In this document: positions 10,797 to 25,810 of the stretch, one piece after another
Layout: every line of letters begins with the position of its first letter
How positions within the stretch are numbered: position 1 is the first letter of the stretch
IMG/VR virus record: IMGVR_UViG_3300025174_000101
Location: 1-25,960 of that record
Strand: one strand, 5' to 3'
DNA from: a virus
DNA: 25,960 bases
Notes under the pieces: model-generated
Seen by the model: the letters and a program-made list of their open reading frames with translations, nothing else
The model's database searches: none
Told to the model about the DNA's origin: nothing
Program-made: the position numbers and the translations under genes

Positions 10797-10802
10797 AATC
10801 CC

Positions 10803-11780
10803 TCACCCCTTCCCTTTCCACACTTGTGCGGCCTCGCGTATCGCCCGGGCCATATCCGTCAACGCGCCCGGCATCTGCTGCTTGGCAGCCAATCGGCGGG
10901 CGTGCTCGACGATCTCCTGGCCCTGCGCACGCGGGAGCCGCTGTGCCCAGTCTTGCATCCGCTGGGCCAAAGCCCCGCGGCACGTATCACATTGCGGCAA
11001 CCCAGCCGCTTTCATGAGCTGTACCGCGAGCGCAGCCTCTTGCTGCGTCGGGATGGTGACGAAGCTGTACTCCATGGTGCGGCGTACGAAGATGCGCCGC
11101 GCCTGTCGAGTCTCACCTGTCACCGCGTCGGTGAAGTCCTCGGTGGACTTGTCCGACGTGAAGCCCTGGAAGCCGATGCTATGGGCCGGCATCATGCGTT
11201 GCCGGACTTGCTCCCAGATATCGTCTACGCTCACGTTGCCGTGCCAGAATGTGGCGAACTTGTACCCGCGCCCCATTTCGGTAGTCACCTGGATGGCCTG
11301 CATGCGGTCCGTGTCGTCCGTCTTAGCCCAGCCGCCATCGCTATGGCGCTGCATGCCCTGGTAAGCGATGCAGCGGCCACAGGCGCCCCCGTGGTCGTGG
11401 TTCAAGAGCACCGGCCCGCCGGCTGCAACGAAGGCAGCCATGGACTTGAAGGCGCTCTTCTGGTCCACAATCTCCATATCGCTGTCCACGCTGCCGACCG
11501 TCATGAGACCCACAGTCAACCGGCGGTCGTCGCCTGCTTCGCCCTTCACCACGTGCACGCTGGCGCAAAGCTTGTGGTAATCCTGGAGCCCCGCTACAGG
11601 GCGTCCGAGCCCATCTGCTTCGTCCTGTTCCATCGCCTTCCCGTCCTCATCCCACTGGCGTTCACATACCGCGCGCCGCTGCGCGCCATCAGGAAACTCG
11701 TCTCGCATGGTCGGGTTCGCCATGCACCGGCCGATGAATGCGTCCTTGTCCTCGTCACTGTGCGGCTTGGGTAATGGCAT
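10803..11780 (-). CDS. Prohead maturation protease (HK97 gp4-like, U35 family)
   Basis: The protein is 325 residues from ATG 11780; the frame is open further upstream, but that part overlaps another gene and is low-complexity. The N-terminus MPLPKPHSDEDKDAFIGRCM, followed by DEFPDGAQRRAVC, is the Cys-containing extension often found in front of phage prohead proteases. The protease core has GLMTVGSVDSDMEIVDQ, PVLLNHDHGG with the probable catalytic His near residue 128, and MPAHSIGFQG with the probable catalytic Ser near 201. It closes with YSFVTIPTQQEA, matching the family strand SxVxxPA. It cleaves the capsid protein delta domain during head maturation. CDTC at 264-267 lies in the C-terminal tail. 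The gene precedes the capsid gene by 6 nt. Confidence 0.9.
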   Translation of the reverse strand: MPLPKPHSDEDKDAFIGRCMANPTMRDEFPDGAQRRAVCERQWDEDGKAMEQDEADGLGRPVAGLQDYHKLCASVHVVKGEAGDDRRLTVGLMTVGSVDSDMEIVDQKSAFKSMAAFVAAGGPVLLNHDHGGACGRCIAYQGMQRHSDGGWAKTDDTDRMQAIQVTTEMGRGYKFATFWHGNVSVDDIWEQVRQRMMPAHSIGFQGFTSDKSTEDFTDAVTGETRQARRIFVRRTMEYSFVTIPTQQEAALAVQLMKAAGLPQCDTCRGALAQRMQDWAQRLPRAQGQEIVEHARRLAAKQQMPGALTDMARAIREAAQVWKGKG

Positions 11781-11787
11781 CCTGAAC

Positions 11788-12048
11788 CTACTTGGGCTCC
11801 TTTGGCGGCTTCGGGCCTTTCCCTTCTCCTCGTGGCCGGTCTGTATGTGGGGGCGGTACCGAATCTGGTGGTGCATCGAACGGCGGCACGCTATCCACAG
11901 GCCCGGGCGCCCAGTCCGGTGGCTCATCTACCGGCGGCGCCACAACCGGTGGCGGTTCCTCGCCCTCGTACACACAGCCGCGGCTTAGGAGCATGTAGCC
12001 GCCCAGGATGAAGGCCGCGAACAAACCCACATAGACGAATGCACGCAT
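11788..12048 (-). CDS. Membrane-anchored proline-rich small protein
   Basis: The protein is 86 residues, starting at ATG 12048 in a TGATG overlap with the portal stop, behind GGAGGG. Residues 3-22 (AFVYVGLFAAFILGGYMLL) form one transmembrane helix. The remainder is Pro/Asp/Glu-rich (EEPPPVVAPPVDEPPDWAP) and ends in a basic PKPPKEPK tail. A short anchor plus an extended Pro-rich arm recalls periplasm-spanning proteins such as TonB arms or spanin-like lysis proteins, but no motif confirms either. The Cys at position 25 is not in a lipobox. Its place inside the head operon is unusual for a membrane protein. Confidence 0.75.
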   Translation of the reverse strand: MRAFVYVGLFAAFILGGYMLLSRGCVYEGEEPPPVVAPPVDEPPDWAPGPVDSVPPFDAPPDSVPPPHTDRPRGEGKGPKPPKEPK

Positions 12049-14381
12049 CAGACTTGCCCTCCCGTCTGGGCTCGCTCTGGCCCTGCCGCGCCGGTCTGCG
12101 CGTCATAGGCCTCGAGCGCGCGGCGCTCCATGCCCAGGAAGTACCGCCGGAGCGTACGGAGCAAGTCCAGTTCCAGCGTGGCGCGCCGCTCGGCCTTAGC
12201 CATCCAGACATCGTCTAGGCTGCGAGCCATCTTCTGCCGCGCGGGGCGCGCAGCGAGGTCCAGGTGCGAGAAGTCAGAGGCCCAAGTACACCTACAGTTG
12301 ATCGTGTCGGCACCTGAGACGGCCCCACCACGGTCGCCGGGGAACATGAGCCGGGCACCGCTCCGCGTATCCACGAATGGCACACTAAGCGGCAGTGGCC
12401 CCATCTCTTCCATGCTGGCATGGTCGGCATCGTCGTCGGGCTCAAGACCCCGCACACGACTATCGCGGGCCGTGATCCAGCGCTTGAACTCGACACCGTT
12501 CTGCCTGGAGGCATGCCAGCTGCCGCCCTCCTGCGCCTGGTGCGTCTCGGTGCGCGCGATGCGGTCGAGCTGCCAGGGCTGCCGGCGTACGGTAAAGGCG
12601 TCCTGCAGCATGGCGCGCATCTCGGTGACCGAGAGGCCATCGGCAATGGCTTCGGCCACCCGCGCGCGCACCATGTTGTCGGTGTTGGTGACGACCTCCT
12701 CGGCCAAGCGCACGACCATTGTGTCCACGAATTGGAGCACCTGCGGATCCTGTAGATCGAAGGCCCCGGCGATGCCAGCCAGCTCGAGGTGCTGCTCAGC
12801 TGCACGGAGGACCATCAACCTGAGCTTCGCCCGCACCAGCTTGTCGAAAATCTCCTTCTCCTCGTCGAGCTGTAGCAGTGGCGCCTGGAGCACCGCCGTC
12901 TTGCGCCGCAAAGGCACGACCTTCGCCCGAGCGCGCTCAGCGATCTCGGGCTCCTCGTCGGGCTCCATGGGCTCACGGCCATTGCCGCCGGGCAGGAAAC
13001 CTGCCAGCGGGTTCGCGCCCAGCGGCTGGCCGTTGTGTAGGAAGGCATCCATCAATGGGTCGGTTACGCGCTCCATGCCGATCTGCTCGCGGGCCTCGTT
13101 GCGCGACATGACTCCTTGGCTCAGGTAGACCTGATGGATCTGCGCGCGCTCGAGCGCCGACTGCTGCAACGCCCGCACACCCGCGTAGTCGTACTCAAGG
13201 AACAGCCCACGCCCGTAGTACATGGGAATAAAGATGCTGTTCATGAAATCCAGCACGAGCGTGTGCAGGCCCATAATGGTGTCTTCCCAATAGGCTCGCT
13301 CCATGGCATCGGCGTTGGCGATGCGGGTCGATTGGCTGAAGTCCTGCAGCTTGCTAGGCGGGACGCCCATGGCCTCGGCTATGCGGTACTGGATGCGCTG
13401 CTCCTTGTCGAGCGTCGCCAGTTCCTTCTCGGTGGCCCGCGGGAAGGTCGTCACTTCCCATTGTCGTTCACCCGAATCGTTCGCCTCGAGCAACATGTAG
13501 TTGTCGCCCTTGGGGCCGACCATCTTGCGCTGCAGGCGCGCCTCTATCTCTTCCCTCTGCCCCGGCTGAAACTGCCCGTTGAAAAACATGATGTACTCGG
13601 TGGGGATGCCCTGCGCCCAGCGATTCCAGTCCCAGTCCTGGATGGCCTGATCGAGCAGCAGGTAATGCCGCAGGCGGGCCACTTGCCCATAACCGCGCAA
13701 GACGGTGAACGGATGCCGGCGTTTCACGTGAAACATCCGCTCCCTGGGAATGTTCTGGATACCGGCCGCGCGGACGCTCGCGCCGACGCCCTGGATGAGC
13801 GTGCTTTGACCCTCCATCGTGTCCCAGTCGTACGACCCTATGTTGTGCTGGCCAGTGGGGTCTGGATTAACGGTCACCTCATCGGGGCGTAGCCTAGAGA
13901 AGGAAGCCGGCCTGGCTCGGGCGTCCACGTGTACGTAACTGAAGTGGTCGCCTGCGCCATGGGCGTCGGCGTAGACGTACTGCCACCAGGCGCGCCGCGG
14001 TACGTCAGGCGATGGCTGGGCCAGGAGATCGAGCAGGGGGTGGCTGGTTATCTCGTCGCCACGGTTCTCGGGGGTGCCGGAGAAGAGATGGAGCGGCACG
14101 CCGCCGGCATCTTCGGAGATCACATCCAGGCAGCGGCCGACGCTCACCTGGTTGAGCTCAACCTCCATCAACGCCCGGAGATCGGGCGGGGGGCGGTTGA
14201 CTGGATGGAAGAACGAGAGGAAGGCGAGCCGCTGGGCCTCGATGGCCCTAGGGTTGAGAGCTTTGAGGATCCGCGCGCCAGTGTAGGCCGTGGCCTGCCT
14301 GAAGAACCAGGCGGTCGACCGTACGTCGGAAACTAGCCGCTTGACGAGTGCTTGTGCCACCCCACCGCCCAACCCCACCAC
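12048..14381 (-). CDS. Portal protein fused to a Mu F-like head morphogenesis domain
   Basis: The protein is 777 residues, starting at GTG 14381 behind AAGGTGTT. Residues about 60-460 are an HK97-family portal: VELNQVSVGRCLDVISEDAG, HPLLDLLAQPSP, LRPDEVTVNPD, the FHVKRRHPF region, and AEAMGVPPSKLQDFSQST near 335-352. After a linker rich in Glu and Arg, residues about 600-700 form a Mu F-like domain: QLDRIARTETHQAQEGG, WITARDSRVRG and a closing PGDRGG...NCRCTW. The portal is the dodecameric entry ring for DNA. MuF proteins are minor head proteins, usually a separate gene; fused forms are known. The Cys pair near 696-698 fits the usual end of the MuF core. Confidence 0.9.
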   Translation of the reverse strand: MVGLGGGVAQALVKRLVSDVRSTAWFFRQATAYTGARILKALNPRAIEAQRLAFLSFFHPVNRPPPDLRALMEVELNQVSVGRCLDVISEDAGGVPLHLFSGTPENRGDEITSHPLLDLLAQPSPDVPRRAWWQYVYADAHGAGDHFSYVHVDARARPASFSRLRPDEVTVNPDPTGQHNIGSYDWDTMEGQSTLIQGVGASVRAAGIQNIPRERMFHVKRRHPFTVLRGYGQVARLRHYLLLDQAIQDWDWNRWAQGIPTEYIMFFNGQFQPGQREEIEARLQRKMVGPKGDNYMLLEANDSGERQWEVTTFPRATEKELATLDKEQRIQYRIAEAMGVPPSKLQDFSQSTRIANADAMERAYWEDTIMGLHTLVLDFMNSIFIPMYYGRGLFLEYDYAGVRALQQSALERAQIHQVYLSQGVMSRNEAREQIGMERVTDPLMDAFLHNGQPLGANPLAGFLPGGNGREPMEPDEEPEIAERARAKVVPLRRKTAVLQAPLLQLDEEKEIFDKLVRAKLRLMVLRAAEQHLELAGIAGAFDLQDPQVLQFVDTMVVRLAEEVVTNTDNMVRARVAEAIADGLSVTEMRAMLQDAFTVRRQPWQLDRIARTETHQAQEGGSWHASRQNGVEFKRWITARDSRVRGLEPDDDADHASMEEMGPLPLSVPFVDTRSGARLMFPGDRGGAVSGADTINCRCTWASDFSHLDLAARPARQKMARSLDDVWMAKAERRATLELDLLRTLRRYFLGMERRALEAYDAQTGAAGPERAQTGGQV

Positions 14382-14453
14382 AACACCTTGCGCCGGAGTC
14401 CGAACGCTGCCAGACTATGCACGGACTGTGCCCCCTGGCAAGGGGCAAAGTAA

Positions 14454-14693
14454 CTACCGGCGGCGGCCCCGCTTCTCCTCCTTGTCTGCTTCCGGTTGTT
14501 CTAGAGGTTCGCTTGCCAGTTTTTCCACTGGGGCCGCCGCCGGAATCTCTGCGCCGCTAGGGCCGAAGTTGAACTCTGCTGCGTATCTGTCCTGGTAGAA
14601 GACCACCACTTGCGATCCCTGGCCCTCTGGAAGCTGCAGGATACGCAGGGTCACCTCGGCTTGTTTGTACTCGCCGTACCGTGCAAAGAGCAT
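14454..14693 (-). CDS. Small protein with charged C-terminal tail
   Basis: The protein is 79 residues, starting at ATG 14693 behind GAAGGGAATGAGAC. The first 45 residues are beta-prone (EVTLRILQLPEGQGSQVVVFYQ), and the tail is Ala/Glu/Lys-rich, ending EEKRGRRR. It is the last gene of the accessory block before the portal. I do not recognise a family. No Cys pair, signal peptide or membrane segment is visible. Confidence 0.65.
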   Translation of the reverse strand: MLFARYGEYKQAEVTLRILQLPEGQGSQVVVFYQDRYAAEFNFGPSGAEIPAAAPVEKLASEPLEQPEADKEEKRGRRR

Positions 14694-14696
14694 GTC

Positions 14697-14828
14697 TCAT
14701 TCCCTTCTATAGGCCCAGGAGAACCGTACCAGTCCATGCTGCTGGACCATGGCGACCAGGCTGTCGCGGATAGCCCGTTGCATGTTGAACTCGCTCAGTC
14801 GCCACAAGTCGGTTACTGCGAACCGCAT
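14697..14828 (-). CDS. Small protein with unclear (possibly non-canonical) start
   Basis: The frame ends at TGA 14697 and reads MRFAVTDLWRLSEFNMQRAI, then RDSLVAMVQQHGLVRFSWAYRRE, with a natural amino-acid mix. The first ATG in frame (14828) has no ribosome-binding site. The reading frame stays open and protein-like upstream (DGRAWEQELHFDENIQDPK) to about 14936, without ATG, GTG or TTG. A CTG at 14891, overlapping the previous gene's end, would give 64 residues. The true start may be non-standard or the gene may have lost its start by a small indel near 14880. Its stop is 3 nt before the next start (14693). Function unknown. Confidence 0.5.
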   Translation of the reverse strand: MRFAVTDLWRLSEFNMQRAIRDSLVAMVQQHGLVRFSWAYRRE

Positions 14829-14884
14829 TTTCGGATCTTGAATGTTTTCATCGAAGTGCAGTTCCTGCTCCCATGCCCGACCAT

Positions 14885-15085
14885 CTACCAGATCGAGTAG
14901 CGGTAAACCGCTCCGGACTTCCCGAACTCAATGGTTTGCAGTGGCAGGCGCTTGTTCATCTCCAGGATCTGTACATCCATGGCCTTGAAGGCCTCGATGA
15001 CTGAAGCTGTAGAGACGGTCCCTTCCATCTCCAGGTCCACAGTCACTGGCCCAGACTCGAAGTGTAGCTCTGAGATATGTGGCAT
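14885..15085 (-). CDS. Small unknown protein
   Basis: The protein is 66 residues from ATG 15085, chosen because GAGGTGAAACG precedes it; this ribosome-binding site lies across the previous stop. It starts with two beta strands (ISELHFESGPVTVDLEMEG), has a helix (TASVIEAFKAMDVQILEMNK) and ends with a strand. No family is recognised. It is coupled to the preceding glycosidase-like gene. Confidence 0.65.
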   Translation of the reverse strand: MPHISELHFESGPVTVDLEMEGTVSTASVIEAFKAMDVQILEMNKRLPLQTIEFGKSGAVYRYSIW

Positions 15086-15089
15086 CGTT

Positions 15090-16460
15090 TCACCTCGGGA
15101 TGCGGAACCCCTCTTGCCAGAAAGCATACGCCCCGTCGATCATCTGCCACGCTGCCACGTACAGCCTATCCACCATGCCCAGCTGCTTGGCGCGGGCCAC
15201 GAGCTGCCCCCATGTCCCATTTGTCGCGGGGTTCGGCCCGCCCGTTGTCGTCGCCCAGCTGTCCTGCTGGCCCAGGGTGCCATTGAACGCGAGCACGGCC
15301 AGCATGCCGCTGTTCGCCAGCAAGCTCAGGTCTGCGTCTATCTCCGTCCATAGCTTGGGCTGGAGCGCCGCCGTGCGGAAGAAGTGCTCCAGGTAGCGCT
15401 GGTTACAGTGCTCGGTCGTGAACACGTCAAGCGCTATGTGACTGTTGGCCCATAGCCACTGGCTGGGCGTTAGGACACGTGCATCGCTGCCGGCAAAGTT
15501 GCGCCAGGCGAGCAAGAAGGCTTGCCAGCCGGAGCGATACTGTGCCGTCCAGCCGTCCGGGTAATCCGTCACCGCGGCGCCCTTGAACGGTTCATGCAAC
15601 AGGTTGTCAAAGGCGAAGCCCTGATAGATGTACCGGCCCGCAGCGTCCAGCCATGGATTAGTCGAGATCGTCCAGCCGAAAGGCGCAGTGGGATCGAGCC
15701 CCAGCGTGCTGAGCGTCTGCGCGGATTCTGGATTGCCATTGCCCGTGGCGCGGTACACGTCTACATCGTAGCTGTGCCCAGCCAGGGCAGCGAAGGGAGG
15801 CAAGCCGTGGGGCGGGATGTGTGGGCAGGCGACGTTGTGATCCGGTGGCGACTGGTCCACTGGGTTCGACTCGAATTTGTCTATTAAGGGCTCGCCGTAC
15901 GAGTTGAGCAGGCCGTTCTTGCTGAGCAAAGCCATATTGCTGCCCGTGGCTATCTGCCCCGTAGCCTCTTCGGCCTGGGGGATGTAGTAGTGCTCCATGG
16001 GCAAGGACTCGAAGTCCGTCCAGAAGTACACGCGCGTACCATGCGGTGCGGTGCTCCGGTCCCGGATCGCCTCCACCATGGGCTTCGAGAACCAATGCCC
16101 GAGGAACACCACGTCCAGCATGCTACAGAGATCCAGCACCGCCTCGCCCATGAGCGACACGCTGGCGACGGCGTGCACGATCTCGGTGGCAGGGTTGCCA
16201 CCGCGGGCCAGGATGCGCCGAGTGAGTGCATCTTCCCACAAGGCCCAGTTGCGGCCCCTGATCGCCGGTGAGCTGGCGAGCGTCGTGAAGTTGCTGGGCT
16301 GGTTGAAATCGTAGGTGGCCCATACCAAGCCCATGAGGCCCAACAGCTCGCCTGGGCGCGGCACGTTGGGGTGGAGCGTCGGCTGGCGCAGGTGCACCGC
16401 AAGCGGGCGCCTGCGGTCCACATAAGGCGGCGGCGTCCTTGGTATGAGACGTTGCGGCAT
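15090..16460 (-). CDS. Large unknown protein, possibly a TIM-barrel glycoside-hydrolase-like enzyme
   Basis: The protein is 456 residues, starting at ATG 16460 in a TGATG overlap. No signal peptide is seen. Features resemble GHL15/GH114-type TIM-barrel proteins: GFAFDN (281-286), placed like their GxFxDN strand end; a helix TAQYRSGWQAFLLAWRNF; then NSHIALDVFTTEHCN (339-353), placed like the following strand ending in an acidic residue; and late strands MLAVLAFNGTL and LYVAAWQMIDGAYAFW. Asp285, Asp345 and Glu350 are the candidate catalytic acids. This is pattern resemblance only. A virion-associated or secreted carbohydrate-active role is possible but not shown. There is no other enzyme for cell-wall degradation in the window. 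Confidence 0.7.
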   Translation of the reverse strand: MPQRLIPRTPPPYVDRRRPLAVHLRQPTLHPNVPRPGELLGLMGLVWATYDFNQPSNFTTLASSPAIRGRNWALWEDALTRRILARGGNPATEIVHAVASVSLMGEAVLDLCSMLDVVFLGHWFSKPMVEAIRDRSTAPHGTRVYFWTDFESLPMEHYYIPQAEEATGQIATGSNMALLSKNGLLNSYGEPLIDKFESNPVDQSPPDHNVACPHIPPHGLPPFAALAGHSYDVDVYRATGNGNPESAQTLSTLGLDPTAPFGWTISTNPWLDAAGRYIYQGFAFDNLLHEPFKGAAVTDYPDGWTAQYRSGWQAFLLAWRNFAGSDARVLTPSQWLWANSHIALDVFTTEHCNQRYLEHFFRTAALQPKLWTEIDADLSLLANSGMLAVLAFNGTLGQQDSWATTTGGPNPATNGTWGQLVARAKQLGMVDRLYVAAWQMIDGAYAFWQEGFRIPR

Positions 16461-16768
16461 CAGCTCTCCTGCACGAGCTCAACCGTGATCGCTTGCGTGC
16501 CCTCGATGATGCGAACCCAGGCCACAGCGCCACCGATCTGCTGGGCGGTGCGATAGACTGCGTCCGCGATGTCCCATAGCTTGGCTGTAGGCGTGAGCTC
16601 AGGCAACCCAAGTTGCGGCAGCCACTCGTCTAGCTGGCGCTGGACATCTTGTTGATAGCTGTCGCGCTTCTGCCCGCCTGGCAGCTTCTTGGTCACTTCG
16701 ATCTCGACGCTGTTGCGGTGCGGCCACCGGGAAGTGGCCGTATACAGGTACTCTAGGCGTGCTGGCAT
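16460..16768 (-). CDS. Small protein, faintly like the 6-pyruvoyl-tetrahydropterin synthase fold
   Basis: The protein is 102 residues from ATG 16768 behind GGAGGGCTGAGG. The order of elements recalls QueD/PTPS proteins: a first strand LEYLYTATSRW, then HRNSVEIEVT, a helix in DSYQQDVQRQLDEWL, TPTAKLWDIADAVYRTAQQIG like PT-x-EN-x-A, and VAWVRIIEGTQAITVELV like the final VxVxE strand. The zinc-binding triad HGH is not present (only one His at the expected place), so it would not be an active enzyme of that family. A different, unrelated small protein is as likely. The function should be left open. Confidence 0.6.
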   Translation of the reverse strand: MPARLEYLYTATSRWPHRNSVEIEVTKKLPGGQKRDSYQQDVQRQLDEWLPQLGLPELTPTAKLWDIADAVYRTAQQIGGAVAWVRIIEGTQAITVELVQES

Positions 16769-16873
16769 CCTCAGCCCTCCTCATCATCCCATGTCTTGCG
16801 TGCGTGCTCCTTGGTCAGCAGCAACTCGCTCTGGGCTTGCTGCTGCCGCTCCTGTGCAGCCCCCTGCTGCCGT

Positions 16874-17014
16874 CTATGCTCGCAGACAGCTCGGAAGCTC
16901 CTCCTCCTGCGCCGACGACATCTTGCGCGGGTTCACCTCAGCCGGCCGCAACTGGCTGCGTGGTACGTACTCCACGGTCAAGCCTAGCTCAGCCGCCCGC
17001 AGTGGTTCGGCCAT
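16874..17014 (-). CDS. Truncated ParB-like N-terminal segment (46 residues)
   Basis: This short ORF starts at ATG 17014, 4 nt after the previous stop, and ends at TAG 16874. Residues 14-40 (VEYVPRSQLRPAEVNPRKMS) match the opening of ParB/Srx-type nuclease domains: V-x-x-V-P-x-S-x-L-x-P-x-x-x-NPR. The rest of the domain (the G-x-x-x-P-L-x-V core) is absent. The following 105 nt hold an open frame in +1 with Gln/Glu-rich helix sequence ending DDEEG before the next start, without its own start codon. It may be a remnant, a frameshifted gene, or a natural short peptide. The ribosome-binding site is weak (AGGG, 2 nt spacing). Confidence 0.4.
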   Translation of the reverse strand: MAEPLRAAELGLTVEYVPRSQLRPAEVNPRKMSSAQEEELPSCLRA

Positions 17015-17018
17015 AACC

Positions 17019-17231
17019 CTACGGCTTCTTGTTGTTGAGCCACTGCAGGTAGATGACCGCCTGCGCCAGCAAGTACAGACAGCTCGAGCCCAGGTAGTAC
17101 AGGGCGCCGATCAAGCGCAGCTCCTGGCCCACCACGGCCTGGTCAGTGACGAGCGTCACAGTCAGGCCTACGCCAAAGAGCAAGATGCCGACGACGGTCA
17201 GCACGCGGAACAGGGTCGGGCTATACAACAT
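17019..17231 (-). CDS. Two-helix small membrane protein
   Basis: The protein is 70 residues from ATG 17231, chosen because a near-perfect ribosome-binding site AAGGAGGAGC precedes it; a longer upstream reading overlaps the preceding lipoprotein gene. Residues 8-27 (FRVLTVVGILLFGVGLTVTL) and about 38-62 (IGALYYLGSSCLYLLAQAVI) are transmembrane helices, with a short loop and a basic NNKKP end. Size and topology would suit a class II holin, but no endolysin is adjacent and the neighbours are lipoproteins. It could equally be a membrane partner of the cytochrome cassette or a superinfection-exclusion factor. Confidence 0.75.
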   Translation of the reverse strand: MLYSPTLFRVLTVVGILLFGVGLTVTLVTDQAVVGQELRLIGALYYLGSSCLYLLAQAVIYLQWLNNKKP

Positions 17232-17244
17232 GGCTCCTCCTTCT

Positions 17245-17643
17245 CTACTGGTTATGCGACGAGCGTATCGCAGTCCACTCTGCTGGCGGTCTGCTCTCGC
17301 AACCTGCCAGGCCAGGGTTGACTGCAAGCAAGCCTAACAGGACATCAGCGTCCCAGGCGGCCATTATCATGTACTGCGCATATTCCCCCTGGATCCTGCC
17401 GTCTACGATGGAAGCAGGGCCCCAGAAATATGGGCAAACCGCTATCTCCTGGCAGCAAGCAGGGCCAAAGTCTTTTATGAACAGCTCAGCATAGGCTTGC
17501 GATCCCTCAACGATGAGAAACCCATAGACGCTGTCCAGGTTGTCCTGCACGAGCCAGACCCCATCCCTCGAGGCCGGCGCATAGGGCGGACTACCGTCAC
17601 AAGCCAGCGCCAAGCAAGAGGCAAGGAGCAACTGTTTCGTCAT
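17245..17643 (-). CDS. Small predicted lipoprotein
   Basis: The protein is 132 residues from ATG 17643 behind GAGGGATGGC, 9 nt after the cytochrome stop. The N-terminus MTKQLLLASCLALACDGSPP is a lipoprotein-type signal: LASC (Cys10) fits the lipobox well, and Cys15 gives a more usual signal length. The mature part has Cys63, Cys64, Cys70 and Cys115, which could form disulfides in the periplasm, and aromatic residues (ELFIKDFGPACC, CPYFWG). No CxxCH is present. The family is not recognised. Close coupling to the cytochrome suggests a joint function or a moron-like unit. Confidence 0.75.
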   Translation of the reverse strand: MTKQLLLASCLALACDGSPPYAPASRDGVWLVQDNLDSVYGFLIVEGSQAYAELFIKDFGPACCQEIAVCPYFWGPASIVDGRIQGEYAQYMIMAAWDADVLLGLLAVNPGLAGCESRPPAEWTAIRSSHNQ

Positions 17644-17652
17644 GCCATCCCT

Positions 17653-18591
17653 CTACAGGTTGCGCAGAAACTCCAGCACCAGTTTGCGGAGTTCTTGCGG
17701 TAAGGCTTGAAACGCGAGCCGTGTGCGCGTGGCATATCCGCCACCATGCAAGAGCACCGCTTGTTCGATGCTCTGGGCGCGGCCATCGTGCAGGAACTGC
17801 GTAGCGAATCGAAGCCCCAGAAGCGGCTCGGTGCGGAACTCCCCGGGCTTGGCATCCAGCAGGCAGATGTCCGCCTGGCCCGTGCCTATGTCATGGAGCA
17901 CCAAGTCCGTGTACCCCCACTCGGGCGCATGGCACCCGGCACAGCCAATGGCAGCGAAGATGAGCCCGCCCAGGATGTTCTTCTTCACGTCGCCCTGTGG
18001 CCGGAGCTCCTGTGCAGCGATGAAAGCCGCCACGGCATCGCTGTCCTGTTCGCTCAACTCCTCGGGCACCTCTATGCCCTGCTCGACCTCGAAGGCGTCG
18101 GCAGTGAACTCGCGCAGGCTGGCGACTTGGGCCTTGCGGCCGAACTTGCCCAGGCGGCCATTAGGCAGGACATGCGGGCGACCACCAGTGAAGCGCCGCC
18201 ACAGGTCGTTGCGTGCGACGATCTCGGTATCGGTTACCAGGTCCATGATGCCGTTACCGAAGAGATCCGGGCTCGTGCGAATGGCCACTACCGCCCCGGC
18301 CGGCGCCGGCACGCCCGGTCCTGCCAATGAGCTGTCCTGCAGGACGGGCCCGCCGAGCACGGGGCGGCAGGGTACCTCCACAAACGCCGCGTGGCGCTCG
18401 GTCTCGTCGCCAGGACCTACACCTGGCGGCATGTGGCAGTTGGCACAGGATCGGCGGTTGAAGAATGGTCCCAGGCCAGTCGCCATGGTGAATTCCTGCT
18501 CAAACAGCTCGCGCCCTCGCGGGTTGGGCTGCGGCTGCATAGGCGAGCAACCGATCACAAGCAGGACTAGGCCGAGCCATCGGGCGTACAT
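17653..18591 (-). CDS. Di-haem c-type cytochrome lipoprotein (DHOR / DUF1111-like oxidoreductase)
   Basis: The protein is 312 residues from ATG 18591, with a strong AAGGAGGCGGC ribosome-binding site. The N-terminus MYARWLGLVLLVIGCSPMQ has a lipobox VIGC (Cys15), so the protein should be exported and lipid-anchored. Two haem c sites are present: SCANCH (Cys49/Cys52/His53) and GCAGCH (Cys217/Cys220/His221). Between them, RTSPDLFGNGIMDLV and LGKFGRKAQVASL match conserved blocks of the di-haem oxidoreductase family (Pfam DHOR, formerly DUF1111, related to MauG and cytochrome c peroxidases). After the second site, YTDLVLHDIGTGQAD, EFRTEPLLGL, FLHDGRAQSIEQAVLLHGG and the closing LRKLVLEFLRNL also match. 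Usual members are 400-500 residues, so this is a compact form. Haem attachment would need the host maturation system. Activity (peroxidase, thiol oxidation, electron transfer) cannot be told. Confidence 0.9.
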   Translation of the reverse strand: MYARWLGLVLLVIGCSPMQPQPNPRGRELFEQEFTMATGLGPFFNRRSCANCHMPPGVGPGDETERHAAFVEVPCRPVLGGPVLQDSSLAGPGVPAPAGAVVAIRTSPDLFGNGIMDLVTDTEIVARNDLWRRFTGGRPHVLPNGRLGKFGRKAQVASLREFTADAFEVEQGIEVPEELSEQDSDAVAAFIAAQELRPQGDVKKNILGGLIFAAIGCAGCHAPEWGYTDLVLHDIGTGQADICLLDAKPGEFRTEPLLGLRFATQFLHDGRAQSIEQAVLLHGGGYATRTRLAFQALPQELRKLVLEFLRNL

Positions 18592-19022
18592 GCCGCCTCC
18601 TTCCGCTTCTTCTCGTCATGCAGGCGTGTGGCCACGATGACCTGGCAGGGATCCCAGCCCATGTCAGGAGTGGGTAGGCCGCTGCGCCCCTCGTGAAGCA
18701 TCAGTTTACGCACCGCCTGGCAGCTCACTTCCAGCAGGCCCTCGGGACCGCTGAAAACAAGCAGCCCTTGCAGGCCAGGGCAGACCTCGACAAAGGGGCC
18801 GGCGTTGGGCGGTAAGCCGGTCACGCGTATGTTGAACTTGGCACGCAGAACGCCCTCCGGCCCATGCCGACCCCAGGCCTCGCGTTCGGCCTGTACGCAT
18901 ACGCCCGCCAACTGGGCGAGCATCTGCATGCGTGTCTCTCCTGGGGCCGCCGGCTTAGGGCGTTCGGTTGTCGCTCCATTGCCGCGCGCGCGCCTGCCGT
19001 TCATGTCCAGCAAGTCACCCAT
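18567..19022 (-). CDS. Unknown protein upstream of, and overlapping, the cytochrome gene
   Basis: The protein is 151 residues from ATG 19022 behind AGGAGGTTAGG. The first 30 residues are polar and probably disordered; then a helix (MQMLAQLAGVCVQAEREAWG) and a beta-rich core (LRAKFNIRVTGLPPNAGPFV) follow, ending with LHDEKKRKEAAC. No signal peptide, haem motif or metal site is clear. The end overlaps the cytochrome start by 25 nt, so the two are probably co-translated. Family unknown. Confidence 0.7.
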   Translation of the reverse strand: MGDLLDMNGRRARGNGATTERPKPAAPGETRMQMLAQLAGVCVQAEREAWGRHGPEGVLRAKFNIRVTGLPPNAGPFVEVCPGLQGLLVFSGPEGLLEVSCQAVRKLMLHEGRSGLPTPDMGWDPCQVIVATRLHDEKKRKEAACTPDGSA

Positions 19023-19031
19023 CCTAACCTC

Positions 19032-19355
19032 CTAGCCCATCTTGAACATCGTACCCGTCATGCGCTGGTTGGTAGGCGAACCGGTAAACTCGATGCGCAG
19101 GCCGTTGGCGTGCACCCCGCCAGGGAAGGTGTAGTGCTGGATCGCGTTGGCATCTGCCACGCCAGGCACCTCATGGCGCAACGTACCACCTGCCGAACCA
19201 TCGCGTATCTGGATCACGCCCGGCACGCCAGCGGTGCCCGTGTTCCACACAGTGATGCTGAGCACATCCACAGGGATCGAGCCAGACGAGACGATGGTCT
19301 GCGCCGTGCCGAAGGCGGTGATGCTGAATGGCGTGGTGGGCAGTACTCCGCTCAT
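19032..19355 (-). CDS. Small beta-sandwich-like protein, probable virion component
   Basis: The protein is 107 residues from ATG 19355 behind GAGGCAACC. It is composed of short strands with Gly/Thr/Ser-rich turns (SITVWNTGTAGVPGVIQIRD, GGTLRHEVPG, HANGLRIEFTG), the look of small Ig-like or jelly-roll proteins that decorate phage capsids or tails. No Cys or Lys-rich region. I place it as structural by composition only. Confidence 0.7.
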   Translation of the reverse strand: MSGVLPTTPFSITAFGTAQTIVSSGSIPVDVLSITVWNTGTAGVPGVIQIRDGSAGGTLRHEVPGVADANAIQHYTFPGGVHANGLRIEFTGSPTNQRMTGTMFKMG

Positions 19356-19362
19356 GGTTGCC

Positions 19363-20250
19363 TCACATCACATAGCCGCAGTACAGGCGGTGGATGCCGA
19401 ATGCTGTTAAGAGTCCTAGACCAGGATGTCCCCACGCAACGCTGCGTGTACGGGGCGTCTCTGCCGCATACGGCTTGTACAGCGAGCGCAGTGGGATCTT
19501 GACCCATGGGTAGGTGTTGAACAGAGCTTGTCCGCTGTAACCATCCGAGACGAGTGGCAGCGTATATAACGGCACATAGGTATCCCCTGCTGGCACATCT
19601 TCCTTCTCTAGATATCCCTCATACAGCCAGCCCTCGCTAGACGCTGCAGGGGCCAGGCTATCCATCTCCAGGCTGAAACTCTGAGCAAACGCGTACAGCT
19701 CATTGGGCAGCTTGCCGTTGATATGGAAGACACTCTCCAGCAAAAAAGTGGTCCAGTACGGGTTGAGGCGGGATGCGGCCAACACGTTGGTGGAGAGCTG
19801 ATAGCTATGCACAGGCAAGAGCGACGGGATCGTGATTTGCGGCTCTTGGTTGGGTGTCCATGCCGCCTCGAGCAAGCACGTTCCGTGGCGTTTCAGGATC
19901 TCGCTTTGCACCAAGTTGCCAACAGGAGCAATGCGCTTCACATCAGTTTCGGCGGGGTTGCCGCCCCAACCGATGGGCAACTTGAACACGACGTTGTGGG
20001 TGCGGGCTTGCTTGCCGTAGTTGAACCGGTACACCGGGGGGAAGTATGGGCCACCGGCTCCCGCCACCAGCTTGTCGCTGAAGTACACGAGCACAGGGAA
20101 ATCGCTGCGCAGGAGGAAAGTGCTGCCATGCACGGTACCGCCATAGTTCACGACGCTCGTCATTTCGCTGCGGAAAATCTCCGGCGGCGTGGCCCACAGG
20201 CGCCATTGCGGCTCGTTCCATTCGTATTCCCCAAACACTTCATGTGACAT
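19363..20250 (-). CDS. Unknown protein, beta-rich, possible virion structural protein
   Basis: The protein is 295 residues, starting at ATG 20250 and overlapping the previous gene's end by 11 nt. It is rich in Tyr, Pro, Trp and Leu with strand-like segments (STFLLRSDFPVLVYFSDKLV, THNVVFKLPIGWGG, QITIPSLLPVHSYQ), and lacks Cys pairs, signal peptide and recognised enzyme motifs. The composition resembles tail or receptor-contact proteins, yet it sits directly after the terminase genes. I do not recognise a family. Confidence 0.72.
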   Translation of the reverse strand: MSHEVFGEYEWNEPQWRLWATPPEIFRSEMTSVVNYGGTVHGSTFLLRSDFPVLVYFSDKLVAGAGGPYFPPVYRFNYGKQARTHNVVFKLPIGWGGNPAETDVKRIAPVGNLVQSEILKRHGTCLLEAAWTPNQEPQITIPSLLPVHSYQLSTNVLAASRLNPYWTTFLLESVFHINGKLPNELYAFAQSFSLEMDSLAPAASSEGWLYEGYLEKEDVPAGDTYVPLYTLPLVSDGYSGQALFNTYPWVKIPLRSLYKPYAAETPRTRSVAWGHPGLGLLTAFGIHRLYCGYVM

Positions 20251-20455
20251 AGCGCAAGTCCTCTTTGCAGAGCCTGCACTCGGGAGAATCGCATCCGCGA
20301 TGGATGGGGTTGCCGACGACCTGCAGCAAGAGCAGGTCTACTGCGCGGGCCTCGTCGTAGTGGCACGTGCAGAGCAAGAGCACCAAGGCTTGCTTGTGAT
20401 TGAGCACGCGCGGCGGCTCGCCCTGGGGCCGGCTGCAGCGCTTGCAGGTTCGCAT
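20240..20455 (-). CDS. Small Cys-rich, probably zinc-binding protein
   Basis: The protein is 71 residues from ATG 20455, chosen because GGAGGAGGCAGCC precedes it. Cys pattern: CKRC (4-7), LCTCH (29-32) and CDSPECRLC (55-63), with His20, consistent with one or two zinc sites. An in-frame extension is possible: ATG 20566 would add 37 residues with a hydrophobic helix (MWSVVVVLTAATLACMLPML), giving a membrane-anchored form; this lacks as good a ribosome-binding site. The 134 nt between here and the terminase stop hold nothing else that I can support. Function unknown. Confidence 0.65.
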   Translation of the reverse strand: MRTCKRCSRPQGEPPRVLNHKQALVLLLCTCHYDEARAVDLLLLQVVGNPIHRGCDSPECRLCKEDLRYVT

Positions 20456-20589
20456 GGCTGCCTCCTCCTGTCTCCTCACACTCCCACCCCTCGCGGCACC
20501 ATGCCAGAGCATCGGCAACATACAGGCCAATGTGGCAGCAGTCAGGACGACGACGACCGACCACATGCGGGGCACCCTACTGCATATCC

Positions 20590-22161
20590 TCAACTGAGGC
20601 CAAGGCGTTTCGCGCCCTCCTGACCCAGTCGGCGCATCATCTCGCAGGCCAGCCAGTAACTCATCAGGTAGTCGCTCGTGTGCTTTGTCGGCTCGTTCGG
20701 GTCATAGGCTTGCATGCCCTGGACCAGCTGATCGACCTGGCGCCAAGCATGGGCCCTCTCATCGCTGGGCAGAGCCAGCTGGTCTGTCTGGAGGTCCAGC
20801 ACCAGGCTCTTGATGCCCAGGTGCGGGTCGATCTTGCGCTTGGCGGTCGTCGTGAACCCTAGTACACGTGTGCGGTTCAAGTCCTCGTCCGTCCAGCCAT
20901 AGGCACGCATGACTTCCGCGCGCCTGAGCGTGCGGACGACCAGTCTCTGCATGCCATTGTCCTCGATCAGGAACCCTCCATGACGGGGATACAGCCGCAC
21001 CAGCTCGCGCAGCTCGTGGTACATCTTGGCATCGTCCCACAGGCCGCCGCGTATATCGAGCACGTGGCGTACCCCGCCAGCCATGTAGCCCGTTGTGATG
21101 ACGGTCAGGTCATGGCCATCGCCAGTGGCCAGGTCGATACCACTGGCCGCGAGCTGGCCTTCTGGACAGGGACGCGCAAGCTGCAAGCCCTTGCCGCGCT
21201 CGAGGGCGCGCCGGATGAGCGACAGCGGGAAAAGCTCCATCTCTTCCTGGGGCGTCCGGCACTTCCACATGCGCCACCAAGTTAGGTGGTCGGTCGAGGC
21301 CTTCTTGGCCTGTATGCGCTCCCAGGGCCAGCCGCGTAGCACACCGCTGCGCGGGTCGCGCCAAGCCTCGGGCCACAACGCCGCTGGCGGCCCCGGCCGC
21401 CCTTCCAGGTCGCACTCCACATCGTAGCGCCTGTGTTGCCAGCCTTCCTTCGCCGCTAGCCAGTGGCCTGCGTCGTCCTTCGTCCATGGGTGGCCAATGG
21501 ACCGGATCCAACCCTCAGCACTGACGCGGGATAGAACCTCATCGTCTATGCGCTGCTTGACCTTCTCGCGCGCTGCACGCGTGTAGGTGTTGTCCGTGTC
21601 GTGTATGTCGTCAAGCAACACGCCATCGAGGCGCCGGCCCACGATCTGTTTGAGAATGCCGGTAGCGATCACTGTCGGGTCGCGGTCAATGTGCCCTGCG
21701 GGGCGCTCGATCCAGATGCCGAAGATGTGCGTGGGGGTGCGGCCCACACGCGCCACGCGCAGGCTGGGGAAGACCTCACGCACGCGGTCGTTCTTGACGA
21801 TGTGTTGTGCAACCTGCTGCAGGCTCGCTTCGGGGATATCCGGGCCGGATCCAAGGTGCGCAAAGCTGCGTGTGGGATAGTTGCCGAGTTCCCACATGAG
21901 GCGCACAAAGCCTAGCTGGAAGGTCTTGCCATGCTCGGGCGGAGACCAAAAGACCAGGAACGGATGCGCGTCACATTCCTCGTGCCACCGCACGTGGATA
22001 GGCTGTTGATGAATGGCGAAACAGTGCTCGGCGAAGACGTTCACATCGGCTTGTGCCAGCTCGGAGATCGCGTAGCGATGCATGCGCCCACGCCGGCGCA
22101 GCGTATCGTACTCTTGCATGGCTGCAGTGCGGAAGTCGTCTATGGGGATGATTTCTGCCAT
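20590..22161 (-). CDS. terL: Terminase large subunit
   Basis: The protein is 523 residues, with ATG 22161 overlapping the previous gene by 22 nt; Met15 is an alternative start. The ATPase half has a Walker A variant SPPEHGKT (73-80) and a Walker B VLLDDIHD (181-188, Asp184/Asp185). The nuclease half shows the RNase H-like acidic positions: GIDLATGDGHDLTV (Asp343), GFLIEDNG (Glu400/Asp401) and HTSDYLMSYWLA (Asp497). It packages DNA into the prohead through the portal, cutting concatemers. Length is in the normal range. No clear ribosome-binding site precedes the start, so translation is probably coupled to the preceding gene. Confidence 0.95.
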   Translation of the reverse strand: MAEIIPIDDFRTAAMQEYDTLRRRGRMHRYAISELAQADVNVFAEHCFAIHQQPIHVRWHEECDAHPFLVFWSPPEHGKTFQLGFVRLMWELGNYPTRSFAHLGSGPDIPEASLQQVAQHIVKNDRVREVFPSLRVARVGRTPTHIFGIWIERPAGHIDRDPTVIATGILKQIVGRRLDGVLLDDIHDTDNTYTRAAREKVKQRIDDEVLSRVSAEGWIRSIGHPWTKDDAGHWLAAKEGWQHRRYDVECDLEGRPGPPAALWPEAWRDPRSGVLRGWPWERIQAKKASTDHLTWWRMWKCRTPQEEMELFPLSLIRRALERGKGLQLARPCPEGQLAASGIDLATGDGHDLTVITTGYMAGGVRHVLDIRGGLWDDAKMYHELRELVRLYPRHGGFLIEDNGMQRLVVRTLRRAEVMRAYGWTDEDLNRTRVLGFTTTAKRKIDPHLGIKSLVLDLQTDQLALPSDERAHAWRQVDQLVQGMQAYDPNEPTKHTSDYLMSYWLACEMMRRLGQEGAKRLGLS

Positions 22162-22355
22162 GTGCCAGAACTGTCAAGAGTAGCGCGTGCCCAGCGGTAA
22201 CCACACTCACAGCGGATGGCAAGATGTTCCGGTAATGTGCCAGCCTCTCTGGCGGGTGGTGGGCATTCACATCTTAAGTCCACATGATATGTCACGTTGA
22301 CCTGCCGACTCTGGCACTTCGGGCATTGGCGGAGCTGTTCGGGGCCGGCATACAT
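22140..22355 (-). CDS. Small zinc-ribbon-like protein
   Basis: The protein is 71 residues, from ATG 22355 in a TGATG overlap with the previous stop and behind AAGGAGCACTGCTG. Cysteines are placed as CPKC (11-14), CEC (29-31) and CECG (49-52): two CxxC-type knuckles around a short beta core (RQVNVTYHVDLR). This fits a small zinc ribbon. No enzyme motif. It overlaps the large terminase start by 22 nt. Confidence 0.75.
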   Translation of the reverse strand: MYAGPEQLRQCPKCQSRQVNVTYHVDLRCECPPPAREAGTLPEHLAIRCECGYRWARATLDSSGTWQKSSP

Positions 22356-22717
22356 CAGCAGTGCTCCTTCTTGTCCTCGGTCTTGTTGCGCGGCGTAAAC
22401 CGCATGCCCGGCATGATGCCCTGGTGCAGCATGGCGTTCTTGAGTGCTCTGCACTCCATCTCGATGAACTCCACCAAGCGGCTTAGGCTCTTGAGCTCTA
22501 ATTCGGTCTCGCGCTGCCAACGCTCATGCTGGCGGGACCAGGCAATCCCAACCAGGGCAATGAGCCCCGCGGAGACTACGACTCCAAGCAACAGCCACTG
22601 GTCCAGGGTCATGCTGGGCCGTTTGTCGAGCAGCTGCAGAAAGACTTGTTGCGCGCTGGCTATCATGGTTGCCGCCTGGCGTAGCGTTTGCCCGCATCCC
22701 GCACCCAACTCCTCCAT
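22355..22717 (-). CDS. Single-pass membrane protein with charged helix
   Basis: The protein is 120 residues from ATG 22717. Residues about 41-60 (WLLLGVVVSAGLIALVGIAW) are a transmembrane segment, followed by a charged amphipathic helix (RQHERWQRETELELKSLSRL) and a basic tail ending EDKKEHC. Met36 would give a shorter protein but lacks a ribosome-binding site. The membrane plus coiled-coil layout could suit a spanin or holin-like protein; there is no decisive motif and the basic flank after the helix argues for that side being cytoplasmic. Confidence 0.65.
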   Translation of the reverse strand: MEELGAGCGQTLRQAATMIASAQQVFLQLLDKRPSMTLDQWLLLGVVVSAGLIALVGIAWSRQHERWQRETELELKSLSRLVEFIEMECRALKNAMLHQGIMPGMRFTPRNKTEDKKEHC

Positions 22718-22738
22718 GCAGTGCTTGCCCTTGGCTGG

Positions 22739-22921
22739 CTATGCGGCATTGACGACCACGCCATCCCGTAGAGATACCGCAGACAATTCGGCTTGGCTCG
22801 AGGCATGGCTCTCTCCAGGAATGTCGACGATTCTGACGCCGCAATAGGTTCGGCCGCCCCAGCCCGGTTTCATGGCGTGGACGACCTTCCCAGTAAGTGT
22901 CATGCCCAGCTGTGGGATCAT
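22739..22921 (-). CDS. Small unknown protein
   Basis: The protein is 60 residues from ATG 22921 (ATGA overlap with the previous stop); Met7 is a possible alternative. It is beta-prone (MTLTGKVVHAMKPGWGGRTY, CGVRIVDIPG) and has no motif that I recognise. Context: between two small zinc-ribbon or membrane genes in the terminase cluster. Confidence 0.6.
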   Translation of the reverse strand: MIPQLGMTLTGKVVHAMKPGWGGRTYCGVRIVDIPGESHASSQAELSAVSLRDGVVVNAA

Positions 22922-23283
22922 TGCGGCACTTCGTCTTCCTGTTGCAATGCAGGCAACTCCAGAAGTTGCCATTCTAAGTACGTTGCCCCCTTGTGCTGCA
23001 TGATTCGCAGCTTGCAAGTTGGCTCTAGGCTCGACCCTGAACAGTTTTCGCAACGGAACTCAATATACATCACATCGCGGCGTCCATCAATCTCCTCAGA
23101 GGATACGCGCTCGCATTTTGACAAACCGCCTATAACTGTGATCTTCCAGCCATCCCCATCCTCTTGGATGCGATTTATGATAGTAACGCGTCCGTGGTGT
23201 AAACAGCAGCCCCAATCGTTTCCGCAACGTGGGCAATACAAGAAAGAGGATACGGGATCTATCTGTGGAACCGGTGTACTCAT
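22918..23283 (-). CDS. Zinc-ribbon protein of a phage/plasmid hypothetical family
   Basis: The protein is 121 residues from ATG 23283, overlapping the small terminase stop (ATGA). Zinc knuckles are CPRCGND (17-23) and CENC (near residue 78). The layout LYCPRCGND...VTIINRIQEDGDG...MYIEFRCENC...IMQHKGATYLEW is one I recall from small hypothetical proteins of phages and actinobacterial plasmids, ending with a QHKG-x-T-x-x-x-W strand. Function is not known. It sits between the terminase subunits. Confidence 0.75.
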   Translation of the reverse strand: MSTPVPQIDPVSSFLYCPRCGNDWGCCLHHGRVTIINRIQEDGDGWKITVIGGLSKCERVSSEEIDGRRDVMYIEFRCENCSGSSLEPTCKLRIMQHKGATYLEWQLLELPALQQEDEVPQ

Positions 23284-23864
23284 TGCGTTGTCGTTTCCGG
23301 CTGTTTCTTGGCGTACCGCTCGCGCGCACGGCGCAGCACCTCGTCCATGCGGTCGTTCTCCTTGACCAGCTCCTCGGGGTCGGTGGGCAGCCCGCCGAAG
23401 CGCTCGACGTTCTCGGTGTAGAGCTGCACGTAAGGCTGCGGCTTGATGGCGCCAATGACCTTGGCCACAAGCTCAGCGGCGCGCGTGCTCATGACGACGC
23501 GCTTGGCGGCACGGGCCACGTAGGACTGGCGCAGGAACTGGACTTGCGCGGGCGTGCAATCGGTCATGTCGGGCAGCTCCTCGAGCTGGCCGGCAGCGAT
23601 GGCTGCCTGCTCCTCGAGGATACGCGGCCAAAGCGTCGTGGCCGCCATCAAGGCCGACTCCATGCGGCGCTCGTCGATGCGCCGGAGCTCGGACACAAAG
23701 TCGGGATCGCTCAACCAGCGGTCAACGGTCTCCTGCCGAATGCCAAGCGAGCGGTTGAGGCGAGAGAGGCGCTTGCGCACATCGCGCGCCGCGTAGGTCT
23801 CCAGGTACGAGCGGCGGAGCGCTGGGTCGTCAGCGGTGGGCTTCTTCTTCCTTTGGCGCGGCAC
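23280..23864 (-). CDS. terS: Putative terminase small subunit
   Basis: The protein is 194 residues, from GTG 23864 with GGAG 6 nt upstream. A helix-turn-helix-like segment at about 30-58 (RKRLSRLNRSLGIRQETVDR WLSDP split here) is followed by long helices (ELRRIDERRMESALMAATTL and onwards) and a basic C-terminus (RRARERYAKKQPETTTQ), the layout of terminase small subunits that bind the packaging site and load the large subunit. It is separated from the large subunit gene by four small genes, a moderately unusual spacing. Confidence 0.72.
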   Translation of the reverse strand: MPRQRKKKPTADDPALRRSYLETYAARDVRKRLSRLNRSLGIRQETVDRWLSDPDFVSELRRIDERRMESALMAATTLWPRILEEQAAIAAGQLEELPDMTDCTPAQVQFLRQSYVARAAKRVVMSTRAAELVAKVIGAIKPQPYVQLYTENVERFGGLPTDPEELVKENDRMDEVLRRARERYAKKQPETTTQ

Positions 23865-23867
23865 GGG

Positions 23868-24056
23868 CTACTCCGTGTAGGGGTTGTCGTGGTGGCCCTC
23901 GTAGCCTGGATCGGTATGTAGCTGGTCCGTGCAGTCGCATTCGCAGTTCTGCTCGCCCCAGTGGTTGCCGCGCATGCAGGTGCACAACTCGTCGCACTCG
24001 GGGCACTTGTGCTCGCGCGGTGTAAGGATGCGCGGCCTATCGGGGCGGTTCGGCAT
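23868..24056 (-). CDS. Small Cys/His-rich, probably zinc-binding protein
   Basis: The protein is 62 residues from ATG 24056; the start lies inside the end of the previous gene. Cysteines: CPEC (18-21), CTC (25-27) and CECDC (38-42), together with His16, His32 and His47, and a tail HHDNPYTE. The high Cys/His density suggests a compact zinc-binding fold. No known family is recognised. Stop is 3 nt before the small terminase GTG. Confidence 0.7.
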   Translation of the reverse strand: MPNRPDRPRILTPREHKCPECDELCTCMRGNHWGEQNCECDCTDQLHTDPGYEGHHDNPYTE

Positions 24057-24267
24057 CTTGTTCCCACTCCACGTAACGGACCAGCCATACAAAGTGCACA
24101 AGCTCGGTGCCTAGGTTGACCACATGGTAAGTGTTTGGGAGGATGTCCAAACCCTCTCCTAGAGCCTCATTAACCGCTTTCGCTAACCCGTTGGCGCTGT
24201 CCCCCACAAGAATCTCGACAACTGTGCGCCGCCCCTCGGGATCATTGCTGATGGTGTCTTGGATCAT
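24037..24267 (-). CDS. Small unknown acidic protein
   Basis: The protein is 76 residues from ATG 24267, chosen because AAGGAG lies 5 nt upstream; a longer reading from upstream overlaps an inverted repeat. Sequence: RRTVVEILVGDSANGLAKAV is strand-helix, followed by LPNTYHVVNLGTELVHFVWL. The alternating strands and helix give a compact fold; no motif is recognised. Its end overlaps the next gene by 20 nt. Confidence 0.68.
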   Translation of the reverse strand: MIQDTISNDPEGRRTVVEILVGDSANGLAKAVNEALGEGLDILPNTYHVVNLGTELVHFVWLVRYVEWEQDAEPPR

Positions 24268-24283
24268 CGGGACTCCTTGCTCA

Positions 24284-24340
24284 GCCGGCGCGGTCCAGAT
24301 CGCGCTTGCCTGGACACAGGGTATCAAGAACCGCGCCGGC
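24284..24340. repeat. 11-bp inverted repeat with nested hairpin, in an intergenic gap
   Basis: GCCGGCGCGGT at 24284-24294 pairs with ACCGCGCCGGC at 24330-24340 (perfect, loop 35 nt). A smaller pair CCAG 24295-24298 and CTGG 24310-24313 is nested. It lies in the gap between the small ORF ending at 24343 and the gene starting at 24267, directly before that gene's ribosome-binding site. No T-run follows, so intrinsic termination is unlikely; an operator or RNA structure is possible. Confidence 0.5.
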
Positions 24341-24342
24341 CC

Positions 24343-24471
24343 CTATGCATGGGCGGGTCCTTGCGAGCGGTAACCCTTAGCCCTCCGGCTCCAGATGCAA
24401 GGCAACCCGCCCAAGCCCATGCTGGCGCCTATGTGCCGCATCCGTGGCAGCCAAGTCAAGCGCAGATTCAC
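24343..24471 (-). CDS. Possible very short protein (42 residues)
   Basis: An ORF begins with GTG 24471 in a GTGA overlap with the previous stop, the same coupling seen elsewhere in this window, and ends at TAG 24343. Sequence begins VNLRLTWLPRMRHIGASMGL and is basic, with one Cys. No ribosome-binding site beyond the coupled stop. The gap otherwise contains only the inverted repeat at 24284-24340. Coding is plausible but weak; the competing frame is low-complexity. Confidence 0.35.
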   Translation of the reverse strand: MNLRLTWLPRMRHIGASMGLGGLPCIWSRRAKGYRSQGPAHA

Positions 24472-24650
24472 CACGCTCGCCGGTGCCCACACCGCAAGCA
24501 TTCCGCGCGCGGCATCGGGTCGTACCAGTCCTGATACCCCCACACCAGGCGATGCCTACGCCACTTGCGGCAGTGCGAACAGAACCGCCAGCGGACAAGC
24601 CGCCGGCGCCGCCATTCACTTGGGCCCCAGGTGATGTGTAGCTGGCTCAT
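24468..24650 (-). CDS. Small zinc-ribbon protein
   Basis: The protein is 60 residues from ATG 24650, in an ATGA overlap with the previous stop. CSHC (24-27) and CLRCGHRR (51-58) form a two-knuckle zinc ribbon with an Arg/Trp-rich middle (RKWRRHRLVWGYQDWYDPMP). Basic and aromatic residues could bind nucleic acid. It is one of several small Cys-paired proteins flanking the terminase genes. Confidence 0.72.
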   Translation of the reverse strand: MSQLHITWGPSEWRRRRLVRWRFCSHCRKWRRHRLVWGYQDWYDPMPRAECLRCGHRRAW

Positions 24651-25785: not shown

Positions 25786-25810
25786 CTGAATACCAAGCCT
25801 AGGAAAGAGT

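Follow-up and report, generated by a model that had tools for sequence, protein, structure and literature searches.

Di-haem DHOR-family genes recur in tailed phages: a putative exported lipoprotein encoded between terminase and portal genes

Results

A DHOR-family gene in the late block of a phage

The window (i.e., the whole stretch of DNA analysed here) comprises 25,960 nt and corresponds to positions 1–25,960 of IMG/VR record IMGVR_UViG_3300025174_000101. Its minus strand holds a gene for a DHOR-family di-haem c-type protein and putative lipoprotein (Table 1), the reading frame, length, strand and overlapping upstream neighbour of which are as described in the initial annotation of this DNA. 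The 3′ end of the upstream gene and the start of the DHOR gene share 25 nt (18567–18591), a strong-consensus ribosome-binding motif (AAGGAGG) precedes the start codon, and 9 nt separate the DHOR stop codon from the start of the downstream gene; from this arrangement, the gene reads as a well-translated member of an operon. Both of the CxxCH haem-attachment sites proposed in that annotation are present, as is the lipobox (VIGC), with its cysteine located within a short N-terminal signal.

Table 1. Features of the DHOR locus and of the flanking phage hallmark genes (window coordinates)
Feature	Position	Strand	Basis
DHOR-family di-haem c-type protein, 312 aa, putative lipoprotein	17653..18591	-	ORF, PF06537, AlphaFold, Foldseek
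Shine-Dalgarno AAGGAGG, ATG 4 nt further on	18596..18602	-	Read from sequence
Lipobox cysteine Cys15 (VIGC)	18547..18549	-	Pattern and hydropathy; lipidation inferred
N-terminal haem site CANCH, residues 49-53	18433..18447	-	Family-wide invariant
C-terminal haem site CAGCH, residues 217-221	17929..17943	-	Family-wide invariant
His282, inferred distal ligand of C-terminal haem	17746..17748	-	Invariant in 46 sequences; aligns with peroxidase axial Met
Upstream gene, 151 aa, no Pfam/PHROG match	18567..19022	-	ORF
Downstream gene, 132 aa, N-terminal export signal, no family match	17245..17643	-	ORF, Pfam, PHROG
Small hydrophobic membrane-protein-like gene	17019..17327	-	ORF; weak sub-cut-off Pfam matches only
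Terminase large subunit (TerL)	20590..22161	-	phrog_38 E=3e-42
Portal protein fused to Mu-F-like domain	12048..14381	-	PF04860 E=1.9e-42, PF04233 E=6.7e-7

The DHOR gene is flanked on the same strand by two hallmark genes, TerL and the portal/Mu-F fusion, and thus lies within the phage genome, bearing out the proposal that it is owned by the phage. Other ORFs of this phage include a DNA methyltransferase, a helicase and a Mu Gam-like gene; no integrase was noticed among the ORFs read. The same DHOR gene, in the same place and with the same junctions, is found in a second contig, IMGVR_UViG_3300002120_000013 (41,273 bp), which aligns with the window in two blocks that sum to ~15.1 kb at 97.7% and 96.6% identity. 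The ends of this contig share an 84-nt repeat (98.8%), identifying it as a circularly permuted, near-complete genome of ~41.2 kb.

The two contigs form a mosaic pair. No differences occur in TerL, in portal or across the DHOR segment, several other genes are 8–16% apart, and hundreds of substitutions fall outside the identical segments. Diverged blocks (e.g., 19032–19355, 15090–16460 and 10803–11927) alternate with fully identical ones across 10506–25955 of the window, and a 376-nt indel leaves window positions 14714–15089 missing from the second contig. Such an alternation of identity and divergence reflects either inter-strain recombination or strain-switching during assembly. The possibility that the contig is a chimera of phage and host DNA at 17.6–18.6 kb, raised by the initial annotation, is very unlikely, since the join would need to recur with identical junctions in the diverged second contig, the two contigs being not fully independent evidence. 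Searches seeded with TerL and portal returned this contig as the sole other member of the phage lineage of the window, and yielded no related phage lacking the DHOR gene for comparison. Two late-operon genes without a family match (window 15090–16460, 456 aa; 19363–20250, 295 aa) are among the fastest-diverging between both contigs.

Family membership, missing loops and predicted fold

The window protein scores 58.8 bits with the Pfam DHOR model (PF06537; cut-off, 22 bits; E=4.5e-16), well beyond chance and in agreement with the family originally suggested; by itself, the protein is matched over residues 226–312 only. Alignments with plasmid-borne and chromosomal DHORs (A1–A3) make family blocks visible in both halves, with GLGP.F, SC..CH, FG.KA, GC..CH, YTDL.LHD, RT.PL, LHDGRA and H.G all kept; the previously listed LFGNGIMD, GKFGRKA, LVLHDIGTG and LHDGRA are likewise present, and every one of the 24 columns that are invariant across 46 sequences is retained. 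The CCP_MauG model (PF03150) is matched slightly above its cut-off (28.8 vs 25.6 bits), whereas the MauG model of NCBIfam (TIGR03791) gives a score of 25 against a cut-off of 444. The assignment of the window protein to the DHOR family of di-haem proteins is supported, and the protein is predicted to be exported.

Its small size, already remarked upon, held up in a wider comparison: all 79 complete cellular relatives compared are longer (each at least 352 aa), length being a typical and not a defining property of DHOR membership. The haem motifs are spaced by 168 residues, as opposed to ~204 in most relatives, and inserts are absent, including the DGDG loop of relatives. Phe162 and Glu170 are common to all 11 of the phage proteins checked and to 23 of the 25 proteins of the Gemmatimonadota set, whereas most other cellular DHORs carry Gln and Asp at these positions; the block containing them aligns with the distal-pocket block of peroxidases.

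Structure prediction with a family alignment as input gave an AlphaFold model (pLDDT 83.6, pTM 0.82) with the fold class of MauG and the di-haem peroxidases. Foldseek searches with this model returned hydrazine synthase gamma, MauG and bacterial cytochrome c peroxidases (lowest E, 1.7e-5), the best TM to the peroxidases being ~0.5; no match below E=1.9 was obtained against a viral library, and a phmmer search of the PDB with the window protein by itself gave no match. In profile alignments with peroxidases of solved structure, His282 falls where these enzymes have the axial Met of their C-terminal haem, suggesting that this haem of the window protein would be bis-His, with His282 as its distal ligand. 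MauG has a tyrosine on the distal side of its C-terminal haem. The window protein thus resembles CcpA-type peroxidases and MauG in the fold class of its model and in its profile matches, and differs from them in presenting a histidine in place of the axial Met (CcpA) or Tyr (MauG), at ~15% identity.

Cellular relatives and origins

Cellular relatives of the protein are abundant. The best of these are found in soil Gemmatimonadota (43% identity), followed by an Eisenbacteria MAG (39%); among 346 Gemmatimonadota genomes, 146 encode a DHOR relative. When these 346 genomes were searched with the portal and with DNA, a convincing match was obtained for DHOR alone; DNA identity reached ~75–78% over some 130–180 bp and was confined to the DHOR gene. 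The window protein shares with the Gemmatimonadota branch of DHOR/DUF1111 both CxxCH sites, the family-invariant residues, the export signal, the Phe162/Glu170 pair and the RTEPL block, and is unlike that branch in being phage-encoded among structural genes, in its length (312 vs at least 352 aa) and in its missing loops. Among the cellular relatives, some proteins of ~800 aa with four CxxCH motifs (L026, L027, L028, L030 and L035, from Myxococcota, Phycisphaerales and others) are apparently tandem DHOR duplications.

In a careful tree, the window protein, on a long branch, pairs weakly with the phage protein L130 (89/40), and the sister of this pair consists of 13 Gemmatimonadota/Eisenbacteria proteins (97/95; whole group, 100/98); the data fit a grouping of the window protein with L130 first or with Gemmatimonadota first. 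A separate clade (100/98) unites ten other phage proteins with one from Verrucomicrobiota, and L018 is placed elsewhere. The AU test rejects a single clade common to the phage proteins (p=1.5e-51). Given this scatter of phage proteins and the rejection of a common clade, DHOR genes entered phages more than once. The earlier suggestion of a distinct phage branch is thus only partly right: most other phage DHORs do form a phage-dominated clade, but the window protein stands beside Gemmatimonadota, and a single phage origin is rejected.

DHOR genes in other phages

IMG/VR (2.9 million contigs) was searched with profiles and conserved-peptide seeds. DHOR genes were found amid phage genes in ~9 lineages beyond that of the window, with terminase, portal, minor head, tape-measure and tail-tip genes as frequent neighbours. 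The search for homologues at the same locus in other phages was successful, as L134 has its DHOR gene flanked by terminase and portal, matching the position in the window. The phage pair L130 and L131, with terminase and portal unlike those of the window, carry a Mu-F gene followed by DHOR. Elsewhere, DHOR overlaps the tape-measure gene (L132), has tail-tip genes on either side (L138), adjoins terminase (L147) or follows a primase/helicase gene in the replication region (L135). L133, L136 and L137 have DHOR inside phage gene blocks, as judged from their ORFs, the terminase-like gene near DHOR in L133 having a PHROG of unknown function as its sole match; in L144 and L145, the blocks are phage-like from ORFs read by eye. 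A terminase is also present on L018, a contig of prophage type that comes from an isolate genome. The statement that phage-borne cytochromes of this type are very rare therefore stands as a matter of frequency, at ~15 loci (a lower bound) in 2.9 million contigs, but does not capture their recurrence in ~10 phage lineages.

Every phage DHOR has a hydrophobic N-terminal export signal, and the lipobox is absent from most. Values of dN/dS were 0.094 for L130/L131 and 0.073 for L133/L137 (the latter approximate, at dS 1.6), pointing to strong purifying selection on phage DHORs in the two pairs measured.

Several candidates were set aside. INPHARED, a collection of annotated phage genomes, held no phage DHOR; its one match, MT836197.1 (L009), is filed in GenBank as 'Bacteriophage sp.' but has the appearance of a Bacteroidales-like chromosome fragment encoding imelysin, DHOR, cytochrome biogenesis and topoisomerase-like proteins. 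L019 was left out of the phage count as a host gene adjoining an inovirus, and L045 is a Verrucomicrobiota chromosomal gene, though it falls within the phage clade. On a further phage contig, L020, a gene directly following baseplate J and tail collar genes encodes an exported 1261-aa protein that combines an Ig-like domain with a CCP_MauG-like di-haem part at its C-terminus (L020:6650-10435).

Discussion

A proposed role in the periplasm of the infected cell

We propose that the window DHOR is a cargo gene, drawn from a di-haem family with its nearest members in Gemmatimonadota, that has lost several loops and come to reside in the late block of a tailed phage. Judging from the position of the gene in the structural block, the protein would be made late in infection. 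It would then be exported by the Sec pathway of the presumed host, receive two haems from the cytochrome c maturation system of that host and be tethered to the envelope through a lipid. In that location, it would most likely function as a redox enzyme or di-haem peroxidase, drawing electrons from host periplasmic carriers to remove hydrogen peroxide or a related oxidant, such that the stressed cell stays productive until lysis. Taken as a whole, we give this explanation about an even chance. The broader proposition, i.e., that several unrelated tailed-phage lineages independently adopted exported di-haem DHORs for host periplasmic redox or peroxide chemistry, is one that we advance more tentatively, at somewhat short of even.

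We favour the removal of peroxide, or a redox step akin to it, since di-haem peroxidases have the nearest folds and since the pocket block keeps an acidic residue, Glu170, within the segment aligned to the distal pocket of these enzymes. Against such a reading, Phe162 replaces the Gln of the pocket block, as it does in Gemmatimonadota, and the offset of Glu170 differs by ~2 residues from that of the peroxidase Glu, leaving the catalytic assignment uncertain. The finding of no electron donor gene near the window DHOR also counts against it, as do the TM-score to peroxidases, which is no higher than ~0.5, and the only putative standing of DHOR as a peroxidase family.

The protein could instead serve periplasmic iron handling in the infected cell, providing more iron for the cell or the particle. 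Plasmid-borne DHORs of Thermus, Azospirillum and Paracoccus adjoin imelysin and iron-uptake genes, and imelysins have been linked to DUF1111 peroxidases (PMC3143127). This phage, however, has neither an imelysin nor a transporter, and the closest relatives, in Gemmatimonadota, are found beside an ABC exporter-like gene instead of imelysin; we thus regard iron handling as unlikely. Slightly more doubtful still is a change to the envelope of the infected cell, e.g., by a lipoprotein of the outer membrane that prevents superinfection or modifies a receptor and whose haems are structural or sensing. Export, the lipobox and two small neighbouring genes that also look envelope-directed would suit such a function, but the lipobox is missing from most phage DHORs, and haem and redox residues are strictly conserved even between unrelated phages, which speaks for chemistry over a mere surface role.

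That several phage DHORs sit between head or tail genes, and that the 1261-aa protein of L020 bears a di-haem domain beside baseplate and collar genes, might indicate a component of the particle, such as a tail tip acting at adsorption or entry. Yet all copies carry an export signal, and the attachment of c-type haem takes place outside the cytoplasm, the compartment in which tailed phages assemble; the locus moreover differs between lineages, with the L135 copy in a replication region, making a particle component highly improbable. Least probable of all is a passenger or artefact, whether a false join of host and phage sequence or a gene in decay that has no function. The long branch and the loss of several loops, that of DGDG included, could be read as decay; however, all junctions are common to two diverged contigs, neither the reading frame nor the ribosome site nor any invariant residue is disrupted, dN/dS stands at 0.07–0.09 between related phage copies, and ~10 lineages carry DHOR genes.

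Relation to known phage cargo

Phage DHORs resemble known phage cargo genes (morons or auxiliary metabolic genes) in their probable derivation from hosts, in occupying varied insertion spots in unrelated genomes and in showing purifying selection where this is measurable. The products of many well-known metabolic genes of phages function in photosynthesis or within the cytoplasm; the window DHOR is unlike the usual cargo in encoding a c-type di-haem envelope protein. The literature searched, with few subscription papers and no preprints, held no report of a phage cytochrome or of DHOR or DUF1111 as a viral gene. The protein family is known, whereas its recurrent carriage by phages, as cargo of a new functional class, is apparently unreported.

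A c-type protein with two haems has to pass through the membrane and acquire those haems there from the host, and its carriage thus suggests that phages act on the respiratory and oxidative state of the envelope. On more than one occasion, phages captured such an electron-handling protein, with the infected-cell envelope as its probable site of action; if true, a periplasmic redox or peroxide takeover would be a viral function without earlier description. Occurrence in ~10 lineages, more than one origin and purifying selection make this a testable system and not a curiosity, and the genes are short and amenable to expression in laboratory E. coli with a cytochrome maturation plasmid.

Two further observations concern genes that accompany DHOR on other contigs. 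In L018, a gene for a YncE/lactonase-like beta-propeller overlaps DHOR by 4 nt, forming a two-gene redox-like cassette (L018:8517-10939). The late head block of both L131 and L130 encodes a B12-binding radical-SAM protein (L131:5448-7892; L130:6265-7875), which is uninterrupted in L130 and which, in L131, contains an intein with an HNH-like part that splits the cysteine motif (CPYT/C..N/CSFC, slashes marking the boundaries).
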